Shown piece after piece: positions 7,452-22,042 of a DNA stretch of 58,302 nucleotides. Origin of the DNA: an uncultured Bacteroidales bacterium (GTDB lineage: Bacteria > Bacteroidota > Bacteroidia > Bacteroidales > Muribaculaceae); contig CASENC010000041.1 of assembly GCA_949289215.1 (NCBI GenBank), positions 1 to 58,302 on the forward strand. Direction: 5' to 3'. The position numbers were made by a program, and so were the translations under genes. Under the pieces are notes generated by a model. It saw only the letters and a list, made by a program, of their open reading frames with translations, ran no database searches and had not been told where the DNA came from. Numbering within the stretch: the stretch's first letter is position 1; each line of letters starts with the position of its first letter.

Positions 7452-8348
7452 TCAGCTATAGTTTTCGAGGGCTGTGCGCAGCTCATTCACAACCATGGCT
7501 TTCAATTCGGGTGGAGACACCACCTCGACTTGGGAGCCATGTGAAAGTATTTCCTGAACGAAATCATAGGTGATGAGCAGGCGGTAATGGAACAGTGAAT
7601 AGCTGTCATGCACTTCCTCGCACTGCGAGTGGTGGAGCGGCAAGGCACGAAAATATTTAGCCTGGTTGCTCGACACCTTCAATATCACATTCTTCGGTTC
7701 GCTCTTGCTTTGCATTATGCCGAAACAGTCTTTGAAATAGTCGGCAGCACTGAATCCCTGCGGAACCTCGAAATGCTCGTTGCGAATGACCACATCGCTC
7801 ATGCGGTCGAGCGAATAGGTCTTTATCATGCCATCCTTGATATTAAAGCCTATCACATACCATAGTTGCTTGAAAATGCGCACGAAATAAGGCTCCACGA
7901 CGATATTTCGCTTAGTGTTGACCCGGTTATATGCCCTGTATGAAAAGCATATGCGGTTAGATTCCTTCATTGCCTGTATAATCACCGGCAGGTTTCCGCG
8001 TGCACTGGGGACATCTTCAAGCACGATGCGGTCGGAAACATCGCGCGAATCAGACAGCATCCCGCTCATCGAGGCTGCATCGAGCAGCCAGTTGCGCAAG
8101 CGGTCGTCTTGTTCATTACCCGAAACATCGATGTAATACTCAAACGTTGACGGGTCGCACTCTACTACCACATTGAACGTATCCATAATGCCTTGACGAT
8201 AATTGTAGAAGGTGCGCCGGGCAAGCGGTTCCCCGTCGCTCAACGTCGATTTCACCCATAGGCGGTTAAGCTCGTCACGGGTAATACGTCCATAACGTTG
8301 TATGGTGTCGATAATCCAAATGTACTTATTTATCAGGTTCTTTGCCAT
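7452..8348 (-). CDS. WYL-domain transcriptional regulator
   Basis: A 298-aa protein. The N-terminal region (about 1-70) is a winged-helix-like DNA-binding part (RYGRITRDELNRLW). The WYL domain follows from about residue 125, with ICFSYRA, the name-giving segment QLWYVIGFN and TYSLDRM. A C-terminal WCX-like extension contains ILSHGSQVEVVSPPEL. WYL proteins are ligand- or nucleic-acid-sensing regulators. Its start overlaps the 3' end of the symporter gene by 23 bp, so it is probably the last gene of the long minus-strand cluster and may control it or the neighbouring transporter. Confidence 0.85.
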   Translation of the reverse strand: MAKNLINKYIWIIDTIQRYGRITRDELNRLWVKSTLSDGEPLARRTFYNYRQGIMDTFNVVVECDPSTFEYYIDVSGNEQDDRLRNWLLDAASMSGMLSDSRDVSDRIVLEDVPSARGNLPVIIQAMKESNRICFSYRAYNRVNTKRNIVVEPYFVRIFKQLWYVIGFNIKDGMIKTYSLDRMSDVVIRNEHFEVPQGFSAADYFKDCFGIMQSKSEPKNVILKVSSNQAKYFRALPLHHSQCEEVHDSYSLFHYRLLITYDFVQEILSHGSQVEVVSPPELKAMVVNELRTALENYS

Positions 8349-9795
8349 AACTTTTCCCTTTTGAAAGCATCAACAGCCCGGCAAATGTCATTGCGGCGTT
8401 CAGCAGCAACAACTCAAAACTCATCACATAACCATAATGTACCAACAGCCCCCGTTGCACAAAGTAGCATATCACCGGGGCGGCGACACACACCACCGGC
8501 ACAAGGCGGTCACGCACCTTACCGCGCACGGCAAGTCCGAAGAGGAACAACCCGAGAATAGGCCCGTAGGTGTAGCTTGCAAGCGTGTAAACGGCACTTA
8601 TGGCATCGCTGTTGCTTATGTAATAGAAAACTATTATCACCAGTCCCATAACCACCGACATGGCCACGTGCACACAGCGACGCACACGGGTAAGGCGACG
8701 CTCGTCAAGCCCCGAAGCCCCGAGTATATCTACCGTAAACGACGTGGTGAGCGAAGTCAAAGCCGACCCGGCTGCCGAATATGCCGCCGAAACCAGCCCA
8801 AGGATAAACACCACGCCTACCACAAGCGGCATGGTTGGGTGCGATGCCACAAGCCCGAATAGTTCATCGGTTTTCTCGGGCACTGCCATGCCGGGGGTGT
8901 TCCTCACGTACATCACAAGCAACGTGCCAAGCACAAGAAACAAGGCTATGATAAAAAATTGCGAAATGCTGCTTACAATCATGTTTTTCTGCGACTCGCG
9001 CGAATTGCGGCAGGCAAGGTTGCGCTGCATCATGTCTTGGTCGAGCCCGGTGGTGGCAACCACCATGAATATGCCTGCAAGGAATTGTTTCCAAAAATAT
9101 TCCCCGCCTTTGGGATTGTCGAAGTAGAATATGCGTGAAGTGTCATCGGCCGCCACAGCCTCAACCATCGAACCTATGTCAAAGCCAAGGCTGCGAGCTA
9201 TGAACACAATGCTCAACACCACCGATGCAACAAGACAAAACGACTTAAGCGTATCGGTCCAAATCACCGTCTTCACGCCGCCCTGCATGGTGTAAAGCCA
9301 TATGAGTGCTATGGTTATGACAACATTTAACGCAAACGGAACCCCGAGCGGACCGAAAGCAAGGCTCTGCAACACCACGCATACCACAAAGAAACGCACC
9401 GAAGCTCCGAGCATCTTGGAAATAAAGAAAAACCACGCACCGCTGCGATAAGTCATCATGCCGAAACGTTGTTCAAGGTACCCGTAAATAGACACAAGAT
9501 TGCGCCTGTAAAACAGCGGGACCAGCACAAAGGCAATAACCACATAACCTACCACAAATCCCAATGCCATTTGCAAATAACTATACCCCTTGGCCACCAC
9601 CATCCCGGGAACCGAAATGAATGTCACACCCGATATCGCCGCACCCATGGTTGCAAATGCCACCACCGGCCACGGTGCCTGCCTATTGCCGGTGAAAAAA
9701 CTTGTATTGCTGCTTCCCCGCCCGGCAAAAGCCGAAACGACAAACAGCAAAACGAAATAGCCTACTATGGTGAGAATAACTATTACCGGTGTCAT
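8326..9795 (-). CDS. Sodium/solute symporter (SSS family)
   Basis: A 489-aa protein with about thirteen hydrophobic segments, typical of the SSS/SLC5 family (sialic acid, sugar, proline and similar solutes). Family features include AISGVTFISVPGMV near helix 1-2, a helix containing GLDQDMMQRNLACRN, and SAAYSAAGSALTSLTTSF where sodium ligands usually lie. The substrate is not visible. It lies 9 bp downstream of the NamZ-type muramidase gene, so uptake of the released amino sugar (MurNAc) or a related solute is a reasonable inference. The WYL gene overlaps its 3' end. Confidence 0.85.
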   Translation of the reverse strand: MTPVIVILTIVGYFVLLFVVSAFAGRGSSNTSFFTGNRQAPWPVVAFATMGAAISGVTFISVPGMVVAKGYSYLQMALGFVVGYVVIAFVLVPLFYRRNLVSIYGYLEQRFGMMTYRSGAWFFFISKMLGASVRFFVVCVVLQSLAFGPLGVPFALNVVITIALIWLYTMQGGVKTVIWTDTLKSFCLVASVVLSIVFIARSLGFDIGSMVEAVAADDTSRIFYFDNPKGGEYFWKQFLAGIFMVVATTGLDQDMMQRNLACRNSRESQKNMIVSSISQFFIIALFLVLGTLLVMYVRNTPGMAVPEKTDELFGLVASHPTMPLVVGVVFILGLVSAAYSAAGSALTSLTTSFTVDILGASGLDERRLTRVRRCVHVAMSVVMGLVIIVFYYISNSDAISAVYTLASYTYGPILGLFLFGLAVRGKVRDRLVPVVCVAAPVICYFVQRGLLVHYGYVMSFELLLLNAAMTFAGLLMLSKGKSYGKEPDK

Positions 9796-9804
9796 CTGTA
9801 CACG

Positions 9805-10992
9805 CTATTCTTTATACAACAAATAGGGCCTGCGGCGCAATTTAAATGCCTCGACATCATCGTGCCATGAGGCCTTTATCTCGGCTGCGCTCTTCCCTGC
9901 CTTTATCATGCGACGAACATCGCCATCACCCACGAGCAATTCAAAAAACGATGTGAAAAACTTGTCGCCCATTTCAAGCCGGCGATATGCATCTGCCACA
10001 TATTCAAAATTCACACCGGCGGCAATCACAGCCTCCTCGTCAAGTCCGGTCAAATCACAACCATAACATTTCTCGCCAAGCAACGGCGGATTTTTTGCTC
10101 CGGGAACACTTTGCGGCGTAAACGTATATGTGCAGCCTTTCATCGACGGGTGGCCGTATATTTCAAATGGGTAATCGGTTCCACGCCCCAGGCTTACCAC
10201 AGTGCCCTCGAAATAACAAGTGGAAGGATAAAGGTAAACGGCAAGCATCGACTTCAAGTTGGGCGACGGGGCAACAGGCAGGCGGTAACGGCTGCCGTGT
10301 GTATAACCCTCGCATTGTATAACCGTGAGACGGTCGCCGAGTTTTCTGCCGCCGTCAAGCCAACCCTCACCATCAATCATGAGCGCAAGTTCGCCGAGCG
10401 TCATGCCGTGTACTACAGGAATGGGCAATGCTCCAACTCCCGACTTGTATTTCATATCAAGTACCGGGCCATCGACATACATCCCATTTGGGTTCGGGCG
10501 GTCCAAAACCATAAAATCCTTGCCATAAGCAACAGCCGCATTCATCAACCGCATCATGGTGATGTAATAAGTGTAATAACGCACCCCCACATCCTGCAAA
10601 TCGGTGACTATGATATCAAACCGGTTCATTGTTTTCGCCGAAGGCATACCTTTTTGGCCATCGTAAAGCGATGCTATGGGAATACCGGTGGCTGCATCCA
10701 CGCCGCCCTGCACCTTTTCTCCGGCATCGGCATTACCGCGAAATCCGTGTTCGGGCGAAAATATGGTAGTGACATTTATACCGTTTTCGAGCATTATGTC
10801 AAGGGTGTGACGGCCGTCCACCACGCCGGTGTGGTTACTCAACAATGCCACGCGCTTCCCTTTTAGCAGATGCGCATACTCATCGATGCGAGCCGCCCCC
10901 ACTTTTATATCGGTGGAAAATGCCACCGGCACGCACACAGCCATGGTAACGGCCATGGCGACAAGCCGGTAAATAGTTCTAAGGTATGTCAT
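9805..10992 (-). CDS. Exo-beta-N-acetylmuramidase, NamZ type (DUF1343, GH171)
   Basis: A 395-aa protein with a signal peptide (residues 1-27). Conserved DUF1343 blocks are FSPEHGFRGNADAGEKV, VTDLQDVGVRYYTY, VLDRPNPNGMYVDGP, VHGMTLGELALMIDGE and SLGRGTDYPFEIYG. The family removes terminal N-acetylmuramic acid from peptidoglycan fragments in the periplasm or outside the cell. The symporter 9 bp downstream makes a salvage pair with it. The 53-bp gap to the upstream DUF1573 gene contains TATATTTA, one base off a -7 box, so an internal promoter is possible. The fold call is strong; the exact substrate here is inferred from the family. Confidence 0.85.
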   Translation of the reverse strand: MTYLRTIYRLVAMAVTMAVCVPVAFSTDIKVGAARIDEYAHLLKGKRVALLSNHTGVVDGRHTLDIMLENGINVTTIFSPEHGFRGNADAGEKVQGGVDAATGIPIASLYDGQKGMPSAKTMNRFDIIVTDLQDVGVRYYTYYITMMRLMNAAVAYGKDFMVLDRPNPNGMYVDGPVLDMKYKSGVGALPIPVVHGMTLGELALMIDGEGWLDGGRKLGDRLTVIQCEGYTHGSRYRLPVAPSPNLKSMLAVYLYPSTCYFEGTVVSLGRGTDYPFEIYGHPSMKGCTYTFTPQSVPGAKNPPLLGEKCYGCDLTGLDEEAVIAAGVNFEYVADAYRRLEMGDKFFTSFFELLVGDGDVRRMIKAGKSAAEIKASWHDDVEAFKLRRRPYLLYKE

Positions 10993-11045
10993 TAAATATA
11001 TCGATATTAAGATGTTCTATCATTTGCCAAGTGCCGATCAGGCCG

Positions 11046-11573
11046 TCAAAAGTCTGAATCGACATAGTATCCGCGCTGTATGTCGCCTTCCACGGCATCT
11101 CCCACTATTCCATGCAGATTGCGATATTCGCGATACAGTTCCTCGTAATCACGAGTGTAATCGGCATCGGGAACCACATGCACATCAAATCGCAACTCGG
11201 CTCGCCCCGTCTCGGCTATATTACCGTAACAGTATATATAATGCTTTACAAGACCTATGTTCTTGATGCTATTATACTTCACGTGTATATATCCTTTCTT
11301 GTGCGGCATGATTACTATGGGCAGATTATCATTAACCACCATGCAACCGCACGACGTCTGGATTTCTTTGATAATCAACGGGTCATCGCCAAGATTGGTT
11401 ACACCGTAATTCAGGTCAAGTTCCTCCCCCTGCAAGATGGGATAATAGTGCCGGTCTTGGTCTTCGACCTCGATGGTAGTCATGTTCACCTTTTTTTTGC
11501 ATGACGGCAACGATGCTACAACGCAAAATACCGCCACCGACAAAATTAATATATATAACGCTTTCCTTAACAT
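11046..11573 (-). CDS. DUF1573 lipoprotein
   Basis: A 175-aa protein with a lipoprotein signal peptide (lipobox LPSC, Cys at about residue 25). The single immunoglobulin-like DUF1573 domain carries the characteristic TSCGCMV motif around residue 75. DUF1573 proteins are common in Bacteroidetes as periplasmic or surface proteins, and their biochemical role is not established. The start lies 21 bp downstream of the frameshift-corrected end of the DUF4838 gene, so it probably belongs to the same transcript as the glycan synthesis/export genes upstream. Confidence 0.8.
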   Translation of the reverse strand: MLRKALYILILSVAVFCVVASLPSCKKKVNMTTIEVEDQDRHYYPILQGEELDLNYGVTNLGDDPLIIKEIQTSCGCMVVNDNLPIVIMPHKKGYIHVKYNSIKNIGLVKHYIYCYGNIAETGRAELRFDVHVVPDADYTRDYEELYREYRNLHGIVGDAVEGDIQRGYYVDSDF

Positions 11574-11594
11574 AAGTATTATCCTTTTTTCTTA

Positions 11595-11804
11595 TTATTT
11601 TAATCTTATTTCATCTATTGCAATGTGGTTGATGCGGCTCTTGGGACGCGTTGTTTTGATTACTATGGCAGTACCCGTAGGCACGTCACTCAAGTCAAAA
11701 CTGTAAACCAGCCGACGACTCTCTTCACTCAACATATCCACCTCGGCTGCATCATCGGCAATTTGCCTTGCCACACATTTCCCGCCTTGAAACAGGCAAC
11801 GCAA
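11595..11804 (-). pseudogene. C-terminal piece of the DUF4838 gene, out of frame
   Basis: About 69 residues ending TGTAIVIKTTRPKSRINHIA and six more. They read as a beta-sandwich-like carbohydrate-binding tail rather than an independent gene, with no ATG and no signal. The piece overlaps the last codons of the DUF4838 frame. If one extra base near 11789-11808 is removed, the two frames join into a protein of about 620 aa ending 21 bp before the DUF1573 start. That close fit supports a frameshift rather than a chance frame. Confidence 0.6.
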
Positions 11805-13458
11805 TGCGATGACGCGTCAATTTCAAAAACGACACCTCAAGCCTGCGAGCCTCAGGCACAACAGGCATCTCAATTTCAAGCCCGTCGCCAAGCGATGAAA
11901 TCAGCCAACCATAATGATAACCGCAAGGCAGCCCGTTGACGGCATCGGTCAACACCGACAAATCGCCATAACCGGCATCAAGCGGCGTCAATGCCTTCAA
12001 TTTGCAATCGGCAAGCAAATTATCCTGTTCACGGTCGAGTATCGACATCTCCCAACATTTGATATAATCAGCAACAGTCAACCCCGATTCGGAAATCTTG
12101 CCGATGCCATACCGCCTGCCTGCAGCAAGGGTCTGTAACCAAATTCCTGCCTGTGACCTGTCAACATTGCCGCAACAACGTGCAACTTCAAGCATGGTAT
12201 ATGACATGGCAATTCGCAGTTTTTCAAGTTCCCGACTTTCCTCATCTGAAGCAACGCCAACTGCATCACAAAGCGCATCATAAAACCGGCCAAATTCAGC
12301 GTATCCGCCCAAATACATCATTGCCCGGTCGATGGGAGCATATATATCGAGCTTCTTTTTCCCTTTTGCAACCGCAGCACCCCATTGCAAGTAACTTTCG
12401 GAAAGCATTTTCCCGGCTGTCGGGAAATGTTGCATGAAATAGCCGCGCACAAGCTTAGTCACATCGGCATCGACATCGGTCATCAATGCTGCCAACACCG
12501 CATTGTGCAAGCCGGAAAACGAAGAATAATCCTCGCCGCTGCCATTCAGGAAAACGCCTCTCACACCCACCTCTTTGTAATGCCGCAACCGCTGTTGCAT
12601 AATGCTCAATACGGGAAACGGCGTGAGGTAATCGTCGAAATTATTTATGTAATCCCACACATATATGATGTGGCACTTTTCTTTCCATTCCTGCACAAGG
12701 GCATCAAAGTCCGACCGGCGTTTGCCGCCATATAACGGAGACAGTGGCCAACGCATTGCGCTTACAACCACACCCACATTGGCGGGCATCTTGTGGACTG
12801 GTGGCGTAAAAGTGCTGCCATAAGCACCCATGAAAAAATCATGACCGGGGAACTCCGTGGCAAGTTTCTCCAACAGTTTCGACACTGCAGGGGTGGCATT
12901 ATTTGCACAGTTCCCTGCCTTGACACACAAATCACAGGTACACACCGCATCATCGTCATTGGGCATTATCAAAAACCTCGATGAACTCTTGTCTCCATTG
13001 CCGAAATTATCGATTATATAGCCTTTTATCGCATCATGCAATACTTGCGATGAAAAGCAATATTGGCCATCGTATCGTTCCCCATTGACCGTTGCATAAA
13101 CGGAAGCATCGGCATTTTCGTCCACTTTCACTATACGGTACAAATTATGCCCCCATATACCCCAGTCGCGCCCGACGTTATTCTCGGCAAACATTGCCGA
13201 TGCAGAAGGATCGATATTTTCGGGCAAATAGGCTTCGCGGTACTCAAAATCGAAATTCTTCGATGATTTCGCAACCATAACGCTTTCATCGGGGTTTTCA
13301 AGCACTGAATTTTCACGCATCGAGGCACTTATACCACTTCGACCGTCGCTTTCAGCCGTATTCGAGGCATTTACGCAACCGCCGCCGACAAGCAGCATTG
13401 GCAATAATGCAATTGCCGTTGCAACCTTAGAAATTGACGTATAGCTGCAATTCGACAT
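11752..13458 (-). CDS. DUF4838-type lipoprotein, glycosidase-like (3' end frameshifted)
   Basis: 568 aa in the open frame. The lipoprotein-like signal ends LLVGGGC at about residue 28. The DUF4838-like core (about 75-330) includes the cysteine cluster CTCDLC, the barrel-like strand FFMGAYG and IIYVWDYINNFDDY. DUF4838 is a glycoside-hydrolase-like family of uncharacterised activity. The ATG lies inside the last codons of the upstream YaiO barrel (32-bp overlap), so the two are coupled. The position beside a polysaccharide synthase and exporter suggests a role on the nascent glycan, comparable in position to PgaB. The last roughly 17 residues are probably out of frame (see the piece at 11595-11804). 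Confidence 0.7.
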   Translation of the reverse strand: MSNCSYTSISKVATAIALLPMLLVGGGCVNASNTAESDGRSGISASMRENSVLENPDESVMVAKSSKNFDFEYREAYLPENIDPSASAMFAENNVGRDWGIWGHNLYRIVKVDENADASVYATVNGERYDGQYCFSSQVLHDAIKGYIIDNFGNGDKSSSRFLIMPNDDDAVCTCDLCVKAGNCANNATPAVSKLLEKLATEFPGHDFFMGAYGSTFTPPVHKMPANVGVVVSAMRWPLSPLYGGKRRSDFDALVQEWKEKCHIIYVWDYINNFDDYLTPFPVLSIMQQRLRHYKEVGVRGVFLNGSGEDYSSFSGLHNAVLAALMTDVDADVTKLVRGYFMQHFPTAGKMLSESYLQWGAAVAKGKKKLDIYAPIDRAMMYLGGYAEFGRFYDALCDAVGVASDEESRELEKLRIAMSYTMLEVARCCGNVDRSQAGIWLQTLAAGRRYGIGKISESGLTVADYIKCWEMSILDREQDNLLADCKLKALTPLDAGYGDLSVLTDAVNGLPCGYHYGWLISSLGDGLEIEMPVVPEARRLEVSFLKLTRHRIALPVSRREMCGKANCR

Positions 13459-14251
13459 TATAGATATTCCTGTGCTTTGAAGCCGTTTCGATTATTTCGC
13501 TATATGGGTTGTAATAATTGTACCATGTGCCAAGCACACCCACCGAGAAATTCCGTGTAAGCATCACGGTGCCGCCAAGGCCCACCATCGATGAAGTCTT
13601 ATGGTACTGGTAACCCGAAACTATACCGTTATCCAAAAGCGTTATTTCGGGATAATTGCCTATACCGGCCATAGCCGTTATATTGGTACGGCGATCTTCG
13701 TTTAAGTAAAACTTGGCCTGTCCGGTGAGGTTATAATAAAATTCCTTGTTTGTCGTGATTAAGTCGAGCTTCAAACTCGTAAGTACCGGATCCCACATCT
13801 TCGACACCGTAGGCGACAACGAGAACATATTATTATCATCGAGCAATCGGCGATAACCAAGGTTGAGATTAAGCTCCCAGTCCTTTTTGAATGTCTTTGT
13901 CGCACCCACGTTGGCAACCCACTTCGGGAAGTAGTCATTAGCCCAGGCAAGGTTGGCGTTCAAGCTCCACGACGGATTGAAACGATGCAACCACGCCGCC
14001 TGCAACTGTATCCCGGTGCCGCCTCCATCAAGGTCCTCGTTAACATCATCGGGGTTCATGTTGCCATCAAGGCTTTTATAATTGATACGGCCCAAGAAAT
14101 CGTTCTTAACGCCCGTGCGTGTATATTCTACCGATGCAATCGAAGTAATCACATCTTCGCTTGCGGGACGCGAATGCAGGTAATAAAGCCCCACTTGGTT
14201 TTTATAACTGCGGTTCAACAGGCCGCGCATGTGCCGGTTATATGCGTCCAT
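13427..14251 (-). CDS. YaiO-type outer-membrane beta-barrel (C-terminal part of a frameshifted exporter)
   Basis: 274 residues from the first ATG, made of alternating amphipathic strands (VGLYYLHSR, SIASVEYTRTG, LNLNLGYRRL, FSVGVLGTWYNYYNP) and ending in an aromatic residue, NF, as outer-membrane barrels do. The ATG is internal to a longer protein. In the same frame, upstream codons read QLNYEPGIAEMDAYN, continuing the TPR protein that stops at 14275. One missing base near 14283-14291 would restore GCT-TAT-TAT-AAC-CAG and fuse the frames. The intact protein would have a periplasmic TPR domain plus a barrel, like PgaA or AlgK/AlgE-type exporters. Confidence 0.7.
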   Translation of the reverse strand: MDAYNRHMRGLLNRSYKNQVGLYYLHSRPASEDVITSIASVEYTRTGVKNDFLGRINYKSLDGNMNPDDVNEDLDGGGTGIQLQAAWLHRFNPSWSLNANLAWANDYFPKWVANVGATKTFKKDWELNLNLGYRRLLDDNNMFSLSPTVSKMWDPVLTSLKLDLITTNKEFYYNLTGQAKFYLNEDRRTNITAMAGIGNYPEITLLDNGIVSGYQYHKTSSMVGLGGTVMLTRNFSVGVLGTWYNYYNPYSEIIETASKHRNIYNVELQLYVNF

Positions 14252-14274
14252 CTCGGCAATACCGGGTTCATAAT

Positions 14275-14877
14275 TCAGCTGGTTATATAAGCCGAGTCGA
14301 GACGATGCATCTTCTCATAAGCAAGCCCCTTGGTATAAAGCAGGCTGTTGTTATTCTCGTCGAAAACCAAAGCCGAGTCAACCACGGCCACAGCAGCTTC
14401 GGGATCATTGTCGCGGATAAGATCAAGCGCATACATTTCGCTGCTTGCCGCATATGCACCGGTTACATCGGGATTATCGGGATAGTCTTCAAGCTGGCCC
14501 CGAAGCAATTCGAGTGATTCGTCATATTCTCCCTTTTCATCGAGCGATTGTGCAATTTTCACTTTATAGAACAAGTCGTTTGGATATTTTTCTGCGCCTA
14601 TTTGTGCATAATGCTCGAATTCTTCGGATTTTCCGAGCAATGCAGCTGCATTAATCGCATATCTCAACCCAAGGTCGCTATCGGGGTTCACTTCAAGCAA
14701 CCTCTGCGCCTCGTAATAAGCACGATTGGTTGCGCCGTCTTGCATAAGCTGCTTGATATAAGGAACGGCTGTCTCCTCATATGCCATTGCGTAAATATCC
14801 CGATTAATCGTGGCAGTATCGTTGTATGCCACATAATACAAGTCAAGAGCAGCAGGCGTATGCCCCATTTGAGCCAA
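14275..14877 (-). CDS. TPR-rich middle part of the frameshifted exporter
   Basis: About 200 residues of tetratricopeptide helices (EAQRLLEVNPDSDLGLRYA, SLDEKGEYDESLELL) ending at a stop created by a frameshift. It has no ATG of its own; the first listed codon is TTG, and upstream codons in the frame read EIFAFNPTYVERKGDIL, which continues the 5' TPR part. One missing base in the run at 14919-14933 (minus strand CCCAAAAGAAATATTC) would join it to the 5' part. It should be read as a segment of the 13427-16283 gene and not as a separate protein. Confidence 0.6.
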   Translation of the reverse strand: MAQMGHTPAALDLYYVAYNDTATINRDIYAMAYEETAVPYIKQLMQDGATNRAYYEAQRLLEVNPDSDLGLRYAINAAALLGKSEEFEHYAQIGAEKYPNDLFYKVKIAQSLDEKGEYDESLELLRGQLEDYPDNPDVTGAYAASSEMYALDLIRDNDPEAAVAVVDSALVFDENNNSLLYTKGLAYEKMHRLDSAYITS

Positions 14878-16283
14878 TATGTCGCCCTTGCGCTCGACAT
14901 ACGTAGGATTGAAGGCGAATATTTCTTTTGGGCCTCGACTTCGGCAAGAGCCTCGTTATACCGCTTGAGCATGGTATAACAAGTGATGATGCGTTCCCTG
15001 GCCGAGAACACAAGCGTGCTATCTTCTTTCTCGTTCTTGACGACAAATTGCGCACACGCTATGGCACTTGCATAGTCATTATTGGCCATCAGCCGTTCGG
15101 CCTCATCGTATTGAGCCTTAACCATCCCATACGTTACATCGTAATTACCCGGATTTGCCCGATAAATGCGATTGAGCAACGCGTCGGCTTCACGCTCGTT
15201 GCCAAACCGGCGTTCAAGCATATACTCCTTGTAAAGCAATGTCGGATTATCGCGTCCATCGCGTTTTTTCGCCTCCGACAGGTAATATCTCGCATCATCG
15301 TAATAACCGCGTGTGAGCGATGTATTAAGCAAGTAATCAAGAGCTTCGCGTGAGCGTGTGGTTTCATAAATCTTGCCATACATTACATACGGGTCGCTGT
15401 CGCGAGCCACTTGCGCCGACTCGGCAAGGAGCGAGTTGTAATAATTGCGCAGTGCGGGTGATTTGTTCACCGACATTCGGTTTTTCACATACGTCAAGGC
15501 CTCGGTGTAACGTCCCTGTTCACACAGTATTCCCACTTTCTTGCGCAGCAGGTCCATATTTGCCGGGAAACGTTCGGCTCCACGCGAAGCCACATCATAG
15601 GCACGGTCGGTGTAACCTTGTTGCAAATACATATTGCTAAGTGCAAGGTAAGTCTCGGCATTGTCGGGATCGGTTTCAAGCAGTTTTTCGAGATATTTGG
15701 TTGCCTCGGTAATATTCCCCGCCTTACGATACTTCAAGTAATTCATTTCGTAAGAATACGCCAAATCCTTCTTCAAGCCACTGTCTTCGGGATAAATCTG
15801 GCTAATGCGCACCAGCAGGCGGTCGGCTTCCACATCGTTGCCCATCTTGCGGTAAAGTTCTATTTTGCGCCGCCACAGCCCGCGCCAGTAAGGGTTCACT
15901 TCAAGCAACTCGTTCACATAACATATGGCACTGGAATAATGGCCCGATTCATCTTCCACCTTCACAAGCATCTGCTTTGCTTCCACATGGTTATAATCGC
16001 TCTCCACAGCCTTTATCAGGTTGTAGCGAGCCATGTCGAGGTCTTGTTTCTCATAATAATACCGCCCCAACAACCAACGAATATTCGGATCCACGGGATG
16101 CACCTTCACGCCCTTGTCGAGGATTTCTTTTGCCTCCTCGTTCCTGTGGCGAGCAAAGCATTGCTTGGCAGCATCGACGTAATATTCGGGCAAATGCACG
16201 CTGTCCTCGTCGGTGGCCGACAAGAAAAACAGCGAGCACACAATCGCCAATATCCAAGTATATGCAAACCTTTGTCGCTTCAT
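14688..16283 (-). CDS. TPR N-terminal part of a TPR/YaiO glycan exporter (frameshifted)
   Basis: The start at 16283 carries a signal peptide (ILAIVCSLFFLSAT, residues about 11-24) followed by roughly ten tetratricopeptide repeats (GRYYYEKQDLDMARYNLIKA, ALSNMYLQQGYTDRAYDVA). Genuine coding ends near 14925 at EAQKKY; the remaining roughly 75 codons of the 531-codon frame are out of phase. Joined to the two downstream segments, the gene spans 13427-16283 and would give about 951 aa: signal, long periplasmic TPR superhelix and outer-membrane barrel. It lies 37 bp behind the GT2 synthase gene. In synthase-dependent systems such a protein carries the polymer across the outer membrane. Confidence 0.75.
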   Translation of the reverse strand: MKRQRFAYTWILAIVCSLFFLSATDEDSVHLPEYYVDAAKQCFARHRNEEAKEILDKGVKVHPVDPNIRWLLGRYYYEKQDLDMARYNLIKAVESDYNHVEAKQMLVKVEDESGHYSSAICYVNELLEVNPYWRGLWRRKIELYRKMGNDVEADRLLVRISQIYPEDSGLKKDLAYSYEMNYLKYRKAGNITEATKYLEKLLETDPDNAETYLALSNMYLQQGYTDRAYDVASRGAERFPANMDLLRKKVGILCEQGRYTEALTYVKNRMSVNKSPALRNYYNSLLAESAQVARDSDPYVMYGKIYETTRSREALDYLLNTSLTRGYYDDARYYLSEAKKRDGRDNPTLLYKEYMLERRFGNEREADALLNRIYRANPGNYDVTYGMVKAQYDEAERLMANNDYASAIACAQFVVKNEKEDSTLVFSARERIITCYTMLKRYNEALAEVEAQKKYSPSILRMSSARATYWLKWGIRLLLLTCIMWHTTILPRLIGIFTQWHMRRQPFLISSSLCKTAQPIVLITRRRGCLK

Positions 16284-16320
16284 GCGTTATATCTATAATT
16301 TCGTTTTCTCTTGTTTCATG

Positions 16321-17829
16321 TCACACAACCGATGGTTGCGGCGATGTCTCGTCACCTTCAAGCTCCTTTTCTTTCTGCTGCCTGCGGCGTTCCTCTTCCT
16401 TTTGGCGTTCCTTTCCGAAGCCTTCACGCTTGATATCTTCCCACTTGAACGACCGCTTGGTGAGGAAGCTGAAGTAACCCTTCACCGAGAAAAACACGAT
16501 AAGAGGGTGGTAAAGTACAGGCTCGAAAAGCGATGCTATAAACAGCCACACATAATCCCACTTGCTGTTGCGGTTGGTGGGATCCTCCACATAGTAGCTG
16601 AAGAAACATATCACAAGCAACATGAACTCATTGAAAGTGTAAAGCATAAGCAATATCACCCAGAACGTAGTCCAGTTGACTGCCCCTATCAGGATGAACC
16701 ACACAAGCGAAATATAGCCAATAAGCTCGATGATGGGAGCCACAAACTCAAACACAAACATGAAAGGATAGGTTATCAACCCCAACCGCTTGTAACGCGG
16801 ATTGAACAGCAACTTGCGATGCACAAACATACACTGCATCAATCCGCGGGCCCAACGGGTGCGCTGCTTGCTCAGCGACCACACCGTCGGCGGACCTTCG
16901 GTCCAACAGGTAGTCTCTGCCACATGGGGTATGCGATAAGGCTGGTTGATTTCACACATATACCCTATCATGCGCATAATCAAATCCATATCTTCGGCAA
17001 AACTCGACGAGTCGTAACCACCAACAGCCACCACAATGTCGCGGCGGAAAAAGCCGAAACCGCCCGACACATTGTTAACGGCATTAAGTGCCGACCAACC
17101 CATCTTGCCCACAAGATATGAACGCAGGTATTCAACTTGCTGGAACAACGGAATGGGACGCTTCGACACACGCGGCTCCACCATTCGCCCGTTTTCCACT
17201 TTACAGCCATTCACCATGAGCATGGTGGAACTGACGGCAATAACGGGCGTGGTTTCCTTCAATACAGCCCACACAAGCCTGTAAAGCGCATACTTGTCGA
17301 TGATACAGTCAACATCGGTATCTATGAAATAAGGATATTTTGCTGCATTAATGCCCGCATTCGATGCATCGGCCTTGGTGCCGCCATTCTCTTTATCAAC
17401 CACCGTAAGCTGCTCAAAGATGGGTTTTGTTGACTTGAACACCCGCCTCACCGGAGCGCTTTTCACCGACTCATGATAGGCATAAGGCACTTCCACGAGG
17501 CTGAAGTATTCGATGAGCTTGTCAAGTGTCGAGTCGGTACTGCCATCATTTACGATTACCACCTCGAATTTCGGATAATCGACCGAAAGCATCGACACCA
17601 CATTGTCTATGATATTGGCCTCCTCGTTATATGCCGGAGCAATAATCGACACTCCGGGCGTGTATGGCGAGTCGCTAAGCATCTTCTTCACATATGCCAT
17701 ACTCAAGAATGTTTTTTCCTTGCGTTGTGAATTAAAGCTAAGGAACATGAGTACCGTGTAATTAATTATCAACAGCAAGCTGTAGAAAAACACGCAATAT
17801 CCATATACGTCAAACAAGAACTCTTTCAT
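16321..17829 (-). CDS. Processive family 2 glycosyltransferase (exopolysaccharide synthase, PgaC/BcsA-like)
   Basis: 502 aa. One N-terminal membrane segment (about 11-31), a cytoplasmic GT-A domain, then about four C-terminal membrane segments. Catalytic features are all present: APAYNEE (64-70), VNDGS (93-97), DTDVD (170-174), AED (278-280) and QRTRW (322-326, the QxxRW motif of processive synthases). Such enzymes polymerise a sugar nucleotide and thread the chain through their own membrane channel. The polymer is unknown; poly-N-acetylglucosamine-like is one possibility. Its ATG overlaps the stop of the HEAT-repeat gene, and the TPR/barrel exporter follows. Confidence 0.85.
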   Translation of the reverse strand: MKEFLFDVYGYCVFFYSLLLIINYTVLMFLSFNSQRKEKTFLSMAYVKKMLSDSPYTPGVSIIAPAYNEEANIIDNVVSMLSVDYPKFEVVIVNDGSTDSTLDKLIEYFSLVEVPYAYHESVKSAPVRRVFKSTKPIFEQLTVVDKENGGTKADASNAGINAAKYPYFIDTDVDCIIDKYALYRLVWAVLKETTPVIAVSSTMLMVNGCKVENGRMVEPRVSKRPIPLFQQVEYLRSYLVGKMGWSALNAVNNVSGGFGFFRRDIVVAVGGYDSSSFAEDMDLIMRMIGYMCEINQPYRIPHVAETTCWTEGPPTVWSLSKQRTRWARGLMQCMFVHRKLLFNPRYKRLGLITYPFMFVFEFVAPIIELIGYISLVWFILIGAVNWTTFWVILLMLYTFNEFMLLVICFFSYYVEDPTNRNSKWDYVWLFIASLFEPVLYHPLIVFFSVKGYFSFLTKRSFKWEDIKREGFGKERQKEEERRRQQKEKELEGDETSPQPSVV

Positions 17830-19037
17830 ACGACATTCCTCCTGTTGATAATGGGATCGTTGATATGCTCAAAAATCCATTCATGTTTTGCCCCTGCCTG
17901 GCGTTGCTTGATGTCAAATACCATGCGCCCCGGCATCCCATAATTATATAAAGCCAATGCAGCGGCGAATTTCACCGAATAATCACCGGCCTCATCGTAA
18001 CATTGTTCAAGAAATGGCACCTGCTTGCCGGTGCCCATATCGACAATAGCATTTATAATAGCCACTTTCACCGATTCCACTTGCGCTTTATAGGCATCCA
18101 CAAGATTAGCTTCATCGGCAATATGTTTCATTTTACCCAGCGTGCACGCGATTTCACGCTTCAATTCGATATTGCTTGTACGAATAAATGCATCAAAAAG
18201 CTCGTCACACTCTTCAATCTTGTTCAAGCATCGTATTTCACTTGCAAACAACGGTTTCAGTTTTTCATTCCGTGAGTCTTTTACCCAATGCGACACATTT
18301 GGTATGGTCAATCCCGCCTTGCGGCGGTTGGCAAGAATGGAATGTATATCTATTTTATCCCAATCGCGATAATACTTGTCATAGTCGCCGTCGTCGAAAA
18401 AGCGGAAAGGCTCTACCACACTGTTCCACATGAAATATGCCTGAGCTGCCTTCCTTAAATCATTATTACGTGAATACAGCAACGGCGTTACAACGGCATC
18501 GGGCACGCCCTCTTCAAGGAAGCGCACCCACGTCAATGCCCTCACCTTGTATTTCGTGCGTGAAAATTGTAATTCGCTTTCAAAAAAACTTTTCAGCCCG
18601 AAAGCCACTATTATATTGTGGAAATTAGTGCGATTTATTGTCTCTCCGGCATCGGTTCGGGTATCGGTTATTTCGGTTTTGGTATCGGCTATCATCTGCA
18701 CGAGCAACCTCTTTTCCCTTACCGACATTTGGTTTCGGCGGTCGTAATTCATCATTTCGGCAATCTCGTCGGGCTCATGCACCACATCGTCGTTACCTAT
18801 TTCAATCATGGGGTCACGGTACAGTTCCAGGAACTTTTCCATTATTTTTTGTTCCTTGTGCTTGATAACGTATAAGTATGCAGTTTGGCACAACAAATAA
18901 ATCCCCACACATACACTAAGCATAATGATGAGAATACATATTTGTATAACCAAAGGGAATCCCACAAAAAGGTCGCACAAGTACCAGAAATAGTAGGAAA
19001 TCACTTTAAATACATATGTGCCATAATCAATCTCCAT
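17826..19037 (-). CDS. Membrane-anchored HEAT-repeat protein of the glycan operon
   Basis: 403 aa. One strong N-terminal membrane helix (about 24-58, IQICILIIMLSVCVGIYLL) precedes a soluble alpha-helical domain with HEAT-like pairs (AAQAYFMWNSV, EIACTLGKMKHI, AIINAIVDMGTG, KFAAALALYNYGMPG). No enzymatic motif is visible. It is the first gene of the minus-strand cluster, with a good promoter about 80 bp upstream, and its stop overlaps the synthase start. An inner-membrane scaffold or regulatory partner of the synthase is a reasonable guess from position alone. Confidence 0.7.
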   Translation of the reverse strand: MEIDYGTYVFKVISYYFWYLCDLFVGFPLVIQICILIIMLSVCVGIYLLCQTAYLYVIKHKEQKIMEKFLELYRDPMIEIGNDDVVHEPDEIAEMMNYDRRNQMSVREKRLLVQMIADTKTEITDTRTDAGETINRTNFHNIIVAFGLKSFFESELQFSRTKYKVRALTWVRFLEEGVPDAVVTPLLYSRNNDLRKAAQAYFMWNSVVEPFRFFDDGDYDKYYRDWDKIDIHSILANRRKAGLTIPNVSHWVKDSRNEKLKPLFASEIRCLNKIEECDELFDAFIRTSNIELKREIACTLGKMKHIADEANLVDAYKAQVESVKVAIINAIVDMGTGKQVPFLEQCYDEAGDYSVKFAAALALYNYGMPGRMVFDIKQRQAGAKHEWIFEHINDPIINRRNVV

Positions 19038-19118
19038 AAGGCATCACTATGTTATAAAACATATCGGCACAACGGCCCGATTTATGTAAAACTTCTACGA
19101 ATATCTCAGATTACTTCA

Positions 19119-19151
19119 CAAATATAAGGTCAAATCATTTCTGTTTCCAAA
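19119..19151 (-). promoter_or_regulatory. Promoter of the glycan/salvage operon
   Basis: On the minus strand TTTG (19151-19148), a 21-bp gap and TATATTTG (19126-19119) match both parts of the Bacteroidetes consensus. The predicted start near 19112 gives a leader of about 75 nt before the HEAT-repeat gene. It is the clearest promoter of the eight-gene run. Confidence 0.75.
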
Positions 19152-20508: not shown

Positions 20509-20979
20509 TTAAAATTCCTCGAAACTCAACGGTAGCAATGCACGAATGCCGTCAAGGCGGTAAACCACATCCCGACCACACAGTAAAACATCGATAGGAC
20601 TGCCACCCAGTTTCTCATATTCAAGTATGGCCTGGCGGCACACACCGCACGGCGACACAGGCTCTTCCACAAAATCGCCTTTTTGCCATGCAGCAATGGC
20701 AAGCCTCACAAAACGCACCCCGGGATAACGCGCAGCGGCGTAAAATATTGCCGACCGTTCGGCACACGTACCTGCCGGGAATGAAGCATTTTCCTGATTG
20801 GCCCCTGTGATTATTTCGCCATTTTCAAGCAGCAATGCAGCCCCCACATGGAAATCGCTATATGGCACATATGCCCGGGAAGTGGCATCTTTGGCCATTT
20901 CCACCAACTTTTTCTCATCTTCGCCCAGCTCATTATAAGAGTAAACCCTTATCTTTGTATCAATAATTCTTTCATCCAT
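20509..20979 (-). CDS. Cytidine deaminase
   Basis: 156 aa from the ATG at 20979; codons further upstream are rejected because the promoter box lies at 20998-21005. It converts cytidine and deoxycytidine to uridines in pyrimidine salvage. All family signatures are present: DFHVGAAL (substrate loop), the zinc site CAERSA with the catalytic Glu, and PCGVCRQ with the other two zinc cysteines. The length is somewhat above the 130-140 aa of typical homotetrameric enzymes because of a short N-terminal extension. Its start codon overlaps that of the divergent LysM gene within CCATGG. Confidence 0.93.
   Translation of the reverse strand: MDERIIDTKIRVYSYNELGEDEKKLVEMAKDATSRAYVPYSDFHVGAALLLENGEIITGANQENASFPAGTCAERSAIFYAAARYPGVRFVRLAIAAWQKGDFVEEPVSPCGVCRQAILEYEKLGGSPIDVLLCGRDVVYRLDGIRALLPLSFEEF
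20950..20957 (+). promoter_or_regulatory. Promoter -7 box for the LysM/glucosaminidase gene, inside cdd
   Basis: TATCTTTG lies within the first codons of cdd on the opposite strand, 20 bp before the ATG at 20978. It supports that start, which has no in-frame ATG alternative before the signal anchor. Confidence 0.5.
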
Positions 20980-22042
20980 GGCAACACAGTGTTTTTGCAA
21001 ATATAGCGAAAGTCGAGAGCAATACAAAGAAGAGCCTGCTCATTTTTGCATTGCCAAGACGCTTCCCATATCACACCACAAAAAACTTTCACGTTTTTGG
21101 CTCATATTGGCCATTTGCACAATTGCCTGCGTACCGGCGGCACAAGGTAAATCGGCGGCATACCTTGAATATATCGAAAAATATCACCGCATAGCCGTCA
21201 TGCACCAGCAGCAATATGGCATTCCGGCAAGCATTACACTGGCTCAAGGGCTGCTTGAAAGCCGCGCGGGGCGCAGCCGCCTTGCCGTTCAAGGCAACAA
21301 CCACTTCGGCATCAAATGCCACGGCAGGGCATGGAACGGCGGCAAAATATATGCCGACGACGATGCTCCCGACGAGTGTTTCCGCAGCTATCGTTCGGCC
21401 GATGACTCATTTGAAGACCATGCCCGATTCCTGAAGCAACGGCGATACGCCCCACTGTTCAAGCTCAAAGTAACCGACTACAAAGGCTGGGCGCGAACAT
21501 TGCGCCAATGCGGATATGCCACCGATAAACGGTATGCCGACAAGCTCATCGACATTATCGAAACTTACGAACTTTACCGCTACGACACCGGGCAACCCAT
21601 CATAGCCAAGCCCAAGCACCTTGAAGGCGACGAGTCGCTTGAACATTCAATCGACAGCCAGATTTTCGAGGAAATAACCTCGGCACACGACATAGTGAAA
21701 CGCAACGGGCTTTACTGTGTGATAGCGAAAAGCGGCGACACCTATTCGAGTATTGCCGAAGAATTTGGCATGAAAGCCCGTAAACTGACGTCGTTCAACG
21801 ATTTAGGATGGAGCAAGCGAAACAACGAAATCACGGTAGGAAGCATCGTCTATATCGAAGAAAAACGTGATGCCGCTACCGGCCACGACACCGGCATCCA
21901 CGTGACGCGCACAGGCGACACCTCCTACTCCATCTCGCAGCAATATGGAATAAAACTGAAATCACTGTGCAAGATGAACCGGCTTTCAACAAGCAATTCC
22001 CACCGTTCGCTGAAAGCCGGACTGAAAATAAGGCTCCGGTAG
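20978..22042 (+). CDS. Secreted glucosaminidase with two LysM domains
   Basis: 354 aa. An N-terminal lead of about 38 residues, then a hydrophobic export segment (LILAICTIACVPAAQG). The glucosaminidase domain (about 60-200) contains GIPASITLAQGLLESRAG with the likely catalytic Glu, NNHFGIKCH and DSFEDHARFL. Two C-terminal LysM domains (about 245-290 and 308-354) start SGDTYSSIAEEF and TGDTSYSISQQY and bind peptidoglycan. The enzyme cleaves GlcNAc linkages in the cell wall during growth or division. The long lead before the signal is odd, but no later start precedes the hydrophobic segment. Confidence 0.88.
   Translation: MATQCFCKYSESREQYKEEPAHFCIAKTLPISHHKKLSRFWLILAICTIACVPAAQGKSAAYLEYIEKYHRIAVMHQQQYGIPASITLAQGLLESRAGRSRLAVQGNNHFGIKCHGRAWNGGKIYADDDAPDECFRSYRSADDSFEDHARFLKQRRYAPLFKLKVTDYKGWARTLRQCGYATDKRYADKLIDIIETYELYRYDTGQPIIAKPKHLEGDESLEHSIDSQIFEEITSAHDIVKRNGLYCVIAKSGDTYSSIAEEFGMKARKLTSFNDLGWSKRNNEITVGSIVYIEEKRDAATGHDTGIHVTRTGDTSYSISQQYGIKLKSLCKMNRLSTSNSHRSLKAGLKIRLR
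20998..21005 (-). promoter_or_regulatory. Promoter -7 box for cdd, inside the LysM gene
   Basis: TATATTTG on the minus strand, 18 bp before the cdd ATG at 20979. It lies inside the first codons of the opposite gene and faces that gene's own promoter. Confidence 0.55.

Follow-up and report, generated by a model that had tools for sequence, protein, structure and literature searches.

A five-gene cassette was identified on the minus strand of a 58,302-nucleotide stretch of DNA (the window) from an uncultured Bacteroidales bacterium of the Muribaculaceae (CASENC010000041.1, which is contig 41 of assembly GCA_949289215.1, a draft genome of 2.58 Mb that is 85% complete). Its genes code in order for a HEAT-repeat membrane protein, a glycosyltransferase of family 2 (GT2), a TPR/YaiO exporter, a DUF4838 (GH163-type) predicted glycoside hydrolase, and a DUF1573 protein. 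The cassette is widely conserved in the Bacteroidota and apparently undescribed, and it is likely to encode a synthase-dependent polysaccharide secretion system. It is read here as a real and conserved variant of such secretion, three genes shorter than the run first proposed.

To our knowledge, the known synthase-dependent systems (Pga, Bcs, Alg, and Pel) are controlled by cyclic di-GMP (c-di-GMP), and for the Bacteroidota discussion centers on the capsule (Wzx/Wzy) route. The Bacteroidota are major gut and marine bacteria, and how they make and control such polymers is the question that the cassette addresses; being conserved and pairing its synthase with a partner of a novel type, it supplies a list of genes for deletion in cultured strains. 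A description of the five-gene cassette was absent among the literature matches listed (mostly open-access papers, with no preprints), and the accessible part of one of them held nothing bearing on it (PMC10434189). An initial reading of the window from its letters and open reading frames (ORFs), referred to here as the first-pass annotation, had likewise known of no described system of this composition, which agrees with these matches except that the composition is of five genes and not eight.

Conservation and extent of the cassette

A GTDB scan with the GT2 alignment gave at least 412 confirmed relatives, of which the best 80, ranked by similarity to the cassette GT2, formed the wider set. 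Genes in these loci were finally counted with profiles built from the loci themselves (earlier, poorer profiles gave HEAT in 69/80), and many loci were cut by contig ends, with room on both sides in 58 of them. HEAT lay directly upstream of GT2 in 77 of the 80 loci, two of the three misses lying at contig edges and the third 1.5 kb away from one, and TPR/YaiO lay directly downstream in 65. DUF4838 and DUF1573 were present in the gene run of 56 and 38 loci, respectively, and all five genes occurred in order in 35/80 loci, including 28/58 of those with room on both sides. By their titles nearly all of the loci belonged to the Bacteroidota (Bacteroidales, Flavobacteriia, Sphingobacteriales, Chitinophagales, and others), and two were titled as members of other phyla (Limnohabitans and Beijerinckiaceae) and are possibly mislabelled bins. 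YaiO or DUF4838 was often missing next to GT2 in the least similar loci (L100-L119), and the window's genome has four further GT2 loci, which had no cassette-type neighbors within their 3 kb.

The association was also found among 395 genomes drawn across the phylum without regard to the choice of GT2; at most four and two candidates were scored per genome, and the counts are lower bounds. TPR/YaiO was identified in at least 28 of these genomes and at least 22 of them had HEAT within 7 kb, the proximity count using 45/77 HEAT places and leaving out those below 61 bits. HEAT was not found in the other six YaiO genomes (G217, G218, G287, G312, G458, and G484), none of which was among the 69 HEAT genomes of the draw. 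HEAT, GT2, and YaiO therefore travel together, in agreement with their grouping in the first-pass annotation, which took a GT2, TPR, and barrel set as the core of Pga/Alg-type secretion, and the inclusion of DUF4838 and DUF1573 in the same unit was borne out by the five-gene order in the 35 loci and in three further genera.

These genera emerged from a family search with GT2 (119 genomes, threshold E 1e-40) that gave matches in seven genomes, four of the window's genus plus G050, G067, and G074; two more genomes of the genus (G003 and G004) also carry GT2 and were evidently not drawn among the 119. G050, G067, and G074 represent three genera outside the window's genus, and all had HEAT-GT2-TPR/YaiO-DUF4838-DUF1573 in order with NamZ not in the run. 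Within the window's genus, the HEAT gene was identified in six of the nine genomes compared, the same six that have YaiO, and three lacked the cassette (a weak HEAT match in G040, E 9.8e-4, was left out).

Upstream of the HEAT gene, the Bacteroidota-type promoter of the first-pass annotation (TTTG-N21-TATATTTG; 19119..19151, minus strand) was recovered and was kept in 6/6 cassette-bearing congeners. The strict pattern occurred three times in the window compared to 0.43 in mononucleotide shuffles, two of the three being elsewhere than HEAT. All of the domains named at first pass were found on the minus strand between 7452 and 19037, with overlaps of 4 bases between HEAT and GT2 and of 23 bases between the symporter and WYL genes. 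Most of the other genes were closely spaced, in line with the gaps of at most 54 bp originally given, but 178 bases separate the DUF4838 and DUF1573 ORFs, the former ending early.

The first-pass annotation had extended this run to eight genes by adding a NamZ-type exo-beta-N-acetylmuramidase (9805..10992, minus strand; NamZ_N, PF07075, 239.8 bits and NamZ_C 108.3 bits), a sodium:solute symporter (SSS; 8326..9795, minus strand, SSF match), and a WYL-domain regulator (7452..8348, minus strand, WYL/WCX match), the latter two identified by domain matches and comparison. The eight-gene order was identical in 6/6 cassette-bearing congeners, the gap before NamZ in the window was 53 bases, and none of the six carriers had a strict promoter within 300 bases upstream of NamZ. 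This would suit a single WYL-controlled unit whose NamZ and symporter recover cell-wall amino sugars as a supply for the glycan synthase, a possibility that the wider comparison makes quite improbable. NamZ-SSS-WYL occurred together in 9/9 genomes of the genus, including the three congeners (L034, L035, and L036) in which HEAT to DUF1573 were not found. In G050, NamZ and HEAT were on opposite strands and 4.7 kb apart, with NamZ past a glucosaminidase, and NamZ was not found in the 20 kb fetched from G067 and G074. Among the 80 wider loci, NamZ was present in three, all Polaribacter, at 4-6 kb from HEAT and in no case adjacent; phmmer (E 1e-8) gave no relative of the SSS or the WYL protein in any of them.

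The eight genes as one unit were consequently rejected, and the run was interpreted as a genus-level adjacency because three of the nine genomes of the genus lack the cassette yet keep NamZ-SSS-WYL. The grouping of HEAT to DUF1573 stood, the grouping of the last three genes with them did not, and the caution in the first-pass annotation that the link to NamZ and the symporter could be coincidental proved right. That annotation had also looked to a strong terminator or promoter between DUF4838 and NamZ as the sign of two unrelated units; a strict-type promoter was not found within 300 bases upstream of NamZ in the six carriers, and the units are separate by comparative order. NamZ-SSS-WYL reads as a separate cell-wall-sugar (muramic acid) salvage module of known kind, and its cotranscription with the cassette is possible in the window's genus.

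Further genes were identified around the run. A glycerate kinase gene (PF02595; 19365-20459), divergent from the cassette, was likewise not found in the fetched stretches of L034-L036. It is followed at 20509-22042 by a cytidine-deaminase-like ORF (assigned by eye) and a LysM glucosaminidase (PF01832), the latter being close to NamZ in the congeners without the cassette and possibly marking a cell-wall neighborhood. An Rfam search of the window gave nothing beyond one tRNA gene (RF00005; 5426-5496), approximately 2 kb past the 3' end of the gene run.

Predicted components and function

The first gene (17826..19037, minus strand) codes for a 403 aa protein with an N-terminal membrane helix and a predicted cytoplasmic HEAT superhelix. 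The Pfam HEAT_2 match was just below the cut-off (27.5 compared to 27.7 bits), the AlphaFold model had a predicted local distance difference test score (pLDDT) of 93, and the N-terminal hydrophobic span was present in 46/46 relatives. In a PDB fold search, the model matched helical-repeat proteins of a generic kind, among them the artificial alphaRep.

Synthase-type GT2 enzymes carry the signature DxD, ED, and QxxRW. The 502 aa GT2 of the cassette (16321..17829, minus strand) has this signature of synthase-dependent polysaccharide secretion, with the processive-type motif claimed at first pass confirmed as QRTRW in the window and QxxRW kept in 6/6 aligned proteins. Its best curated match was PgaC, and hhalign to E. 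coli PgaC gave 99.4% over 219 columns. A cassette that uses a non-processive GT2 to glycosylate a lipid or surface component, its product being served by TPR/YaiO, would be compatible with the solved GT2 sequences matching over short catalytic-domain stretches rather than the whole synthase and with the lack of a known polymer. The conserved QxxRW and the PgaC match make this unlikely, as does the pairing of a TPR part with a barrel, the usual exit of the polymer in synthase-dependent systems in the accessible text of PMC9601211.

The exporter combines TPRs and an outer-membrane barrel encoded together with the synthase, as one ORF of 951-974 aa in 5/5 congeners fetched. In the window, where it had been annotated as one gene, it was instead found as three minus-strand ORFs in different frames: a TPR part (14688..16283, domain match and comparison), in frame with its relatives to approximately 14910; a middle part in another frame (14275..14877), placed by comparison with relatives (the domain scan covered the nine other ORFs) and matching the intact G006 protein at 100% identity across 208 aa; and the YaiO beta-barrel (13427..14251; PF19413 54.6 bits with a cut-off of 23.9 and TIGR04390 35.5 bits with a cut-off of 32).

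The fourth gene (11752..13458, minus strand) matched DUF4838 (PF16126, 112.5 bits with a cut-off of 26.6), and its predicted fold was near GH115/GH84 with an invariant Asp in 39/39 proteins, making endo-beta-N-acetylglucosaminidase activity plausible from the modeled fold and this residue. Among PDB sequences, the DUF4838 profile had no match at 0.01. The final gene of the cassette (11046..11573, minus strand) was assigned to DUF1573 by domain match and comparison. Both proteins had been called lipoproteins, a call that rests on atypical lipoboxes: the strict pattern was found in 16/39 DUF4838 and 3/5 DUF1573 proteins and missed both copies in the window.

Besides the exporter frame changes near 14.91 and 14.28 kb, the DUF4838 frame in the window was lost near 11.79 kb, giving an early ORF end with the tail out of frame; homopolymers of five bases or longer were absent from the 60 bases examined at each frame change. 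Compared with G006 in 400-base stretches, DNA identity was at least 95% in 8/10 stretches between 16.9 and 12.9 kb (88% and 92% in the other two) and in 0/19 outside, where it ranged from 73 to 93%. This tract (16900-12900) contains both exporter frame changes, and either recombination between species or a chimeric draft assembly would explain it. It is quite possible, if somewhat short of an even chance, that the window holds a decaying or mis-assembled cassette that makes nothing in this organism, as the broken frames, the G006-like tract, and the intact exporter ORF of the congeners would suggest. On the other side, the exporter pieces have 97-100% protein identity to the intact G006 copy, so that any decay of the exporter would be recent, and the genome is a draft that is 85% complete.

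From the composition, order, and conservation of the genes, together with the predicted folds and motifs, we infer a polymer, its direction of transport, and a role for HEAT. GT2 would polymerize a nucleotide sugar, probably uridine diphosphate N-acetylglucosamine (UDP-GlcNAc), and thread the chain through the inner membrane, while HEAT, held by its one-helix anchor with the superhelix in the cytoplasm, is a constant companion of GT2 and would probably act as its regulatory subunit. The TPR domain would span the periplasm, the YaiO barrel would serve as the outer-membrane pore, the putative hydrolase DUF4838 may trim the polymer, and DUF1573 would be an accessory protein. The product is perhaps a beta-GlcNAc polymer. 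In their respective systems, PgaB, PslG, and BcsZ trim the polymer. The general scheme of synthase-dependent export is that of PMC9601211, as far as its accessible text goes.

Several observations weigh against a secretion system of this kind. There is no known polymer, and a tested member was not found among the literature matches listed. GT2 scored 108.4 bits compared to the PgaC equivalog cut-off of 422.3; TPR/YaiO aligned with E. coli PgaA in the TPRs only and weakly with E. coli YaiO (probability 2.3%); and the DUF4838 profile had no similarity to PgaB (probability 0.2%). YaiO was not next to GT2 in 15/80 loci, mostly the least similar ones, and ranking the best 80 of at least 412 relatives by similarity to the cassette GT2 favors cassettes. 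Finally, with the exporter gene in three frames, the copy in the window may not work.

A catabolic cassette, in which DUF4838 is a GH163 enzyme degrading foreign glycans, is the reading of a Polaribacter study. In Polaribacter dokdonensis MED152 co-cultured with the alga Micromonas, MED152_03905 (GT2) and MED152_03915 (DUF4838, labelled GH163 and named endo-beta-N-acetylglucosaminidase) were enriched 8.8- and 18.5-fold, respectively, and were listed by the authors as carbohydrate-active enzymes (CAZymes) outside polysaccharide utilization loci (PMC9870897, part accessible). The GH163 of B. thetaiotaomicron, moreover, attacks N-glycan antennae (PMC10154615, part accessible). From the tags and labels, we infer that both Polaribacter genes belong to the present cassette; exactly one gene, TPR/YaiO, lay between GT2 and DUF4838 in four Polaribacter loci (L063, L065, L067, and L069). 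A degradative role for the cassette is very improbable, as DUF4838 stood behind the synthase and exporter run in 56/80 loci and no TonB receptor or SusD was present among the nine window ORFs scanned (the flanks of the other loci were not searched for them). In transcriptome and CAZyme surveys, a DUF4838/GH163 gene counted toward glycan degradation may belong to glycan export.

Two clades and candidate control of the synthase

The GT2 tree (a quick tree of 91 rows) was divided into two clades (Shimodaira-Hasegawa-like approximate likelihood ratio test, SH-aLRT, 99). The window's clade (50 rows) had DUF1573 alone in 41 rows, DUF1573 plus a receiver in two (L046 and L048), and neither in seven. 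In the sister clade, a stand-alone receiver (REC) gene of approximately 122 aa without an output domain was present before HEAT or after the run in 38/41 rows, and one row (L084) also had a weak DUF1573 match. The phospho-acceptor Asp was retained in the six receivers aligned, REC was confirmed by Pfam in two, and a His-kinase/REC/Hpt hybrid gene preceded the receiver gene directly in L125 and L130. Over the 80 loci, both REC and DUF1573 were present in two, REC only in 32, DUF1573 only in 36, and neither in 10 (Fisher p 2.7e-11). The independent REC/DUF1573 pairs numbered four on supported branches and five on all branches, rendering the sign test uninformative, and mutual exclusion was rejected as independent support because the tree shows mainly one deep switch.

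No GGDEF match was found in 25 genomes, comprising the 22 (the window's included) that have HEAT and YaiO no more than 7 kb apart plus G050, G067, and G074. The control search detected the domain in E. coli and in seven further genomes, and no PilZ match was present among the nine scanned ORFs of the window. HEAT is probably a regulatory subunit of GT2, because it is the constant GT2 partner in both clades and has REC as its neighbor in one, and the sister-clade receiver flanking HEAT-GT2 suggests phospho-signal control through HEAT. A tentative model, possible though short of probable, is that these Bacteroidota synthases are switched by protein contact and not by c-di-GMP, with HEAT acting allosterically on GT2. 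In the sister clade, REC, phosphorylated and fed by the His-kinase/Hpt hybrid, would dock on HEAT as an on/off switch; in the window's clade, usually without a receiver, DUF1573 closes the operon and control may be periplasmic.

Variants of the run were also observed. Tandem GT2 genes occurred in 15/80 loci, mainly Chitinophaga and its kin, and in L084 (10447-11994) and other Chitinophaga-type loci the GT2 pair followed a single HEAT gene, which would suggest either a heterodimer or two separate synthases. An alkaline-phosphatase-superfamily enzyme ("Sulfatase," PF00884) was present in the run of some loci, as GT2 fusions in L130 (7615-11019, by Pfam) and in L104 (8974-12516) and L110 (1524-4739; both by our own profile), and as a separate sulfatase-fold protein behind GT2 in L124-L127 and L129. 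L129 had two tandem HEAT-GT2-YaiO modules, one with REC before HEAT and the sulfatase-fold protein and the other with DUF4838 and REC at the end. Directly before HEAT, ORFs with signal-like starts were found in L038 (13418-15208, 596 aa, G067) and L039 (12441-13910, 489 aa, G074); neither matched a Pfam family over threshold and they are possibly polymer-bound surface proteins.

Comparison with known systems

The cassette resembles PgaABCD, which makes poly-beta-1,6-GlcNAc in E. coli, in the related GT2, in the TPRs and outer-membrane barrel within one protein, and in a glycoside hydrolase in the operon (by the E. coli annotation). It differs in a barrel of YaiO type alignable with PgaA in the TPRs only, in DUF4838 as a hydrolase that is not PgaB-like, in a HEAT protein where no deacetylase or PgaD match was listed for the nine window ORFs scanned, and in the lack of a GGDEF match in the 25 carrier genomes tested. 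Membership of Pga was rejected on the GT2 score far below the PgaC cut-off, the lack of PgaB similarity, and the GGDEF result, and membership of Bcs on a CelA/BcsA equivalog score of 41.5 compared to a cut-off of 699.1 bits.

YaiO/YaiP/YaiS of E. coli K-12 similarly places a YaiO-family barrel (PF19413) near a GT2 (YaiP, hhalign 98.1%, and gene map). E. coli YaiO is, however, a 257 aa protein that aligns weakly with the TPR/YaiO profile, and its annotated neighbors, among them a putative deacetylase and an acyltransferase gene that is interrupted, bear no HEAT, DUF4838, or DUF1573 name. The neighboring NamZ gene, with its NamZ_N and NamZ_C matches and adjoining transporter gene, recalls NamZ and N-acetylmuramic acid uptake in Tannerella (PMC10465942, as far as accessible), from which it differs in the SSF family of the transporter and in an adjacency to the cassette seen only in the window's genus. 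Lastly, DUF4838 can be likened by label, not by direct alignment, to the GH163 endo-beta-N-acetylglucosaminidase of B. thetaiotaomicron, the Polaribacter protein being labelled GH163 in the accessible part of PMC9870897 and the window protein matching PF16126; the B. thetaiotaomicron enzyme targets host N-glycans, according to the accessible part of PMC10154615, whereas DUF4838 here lies in an export cassette.

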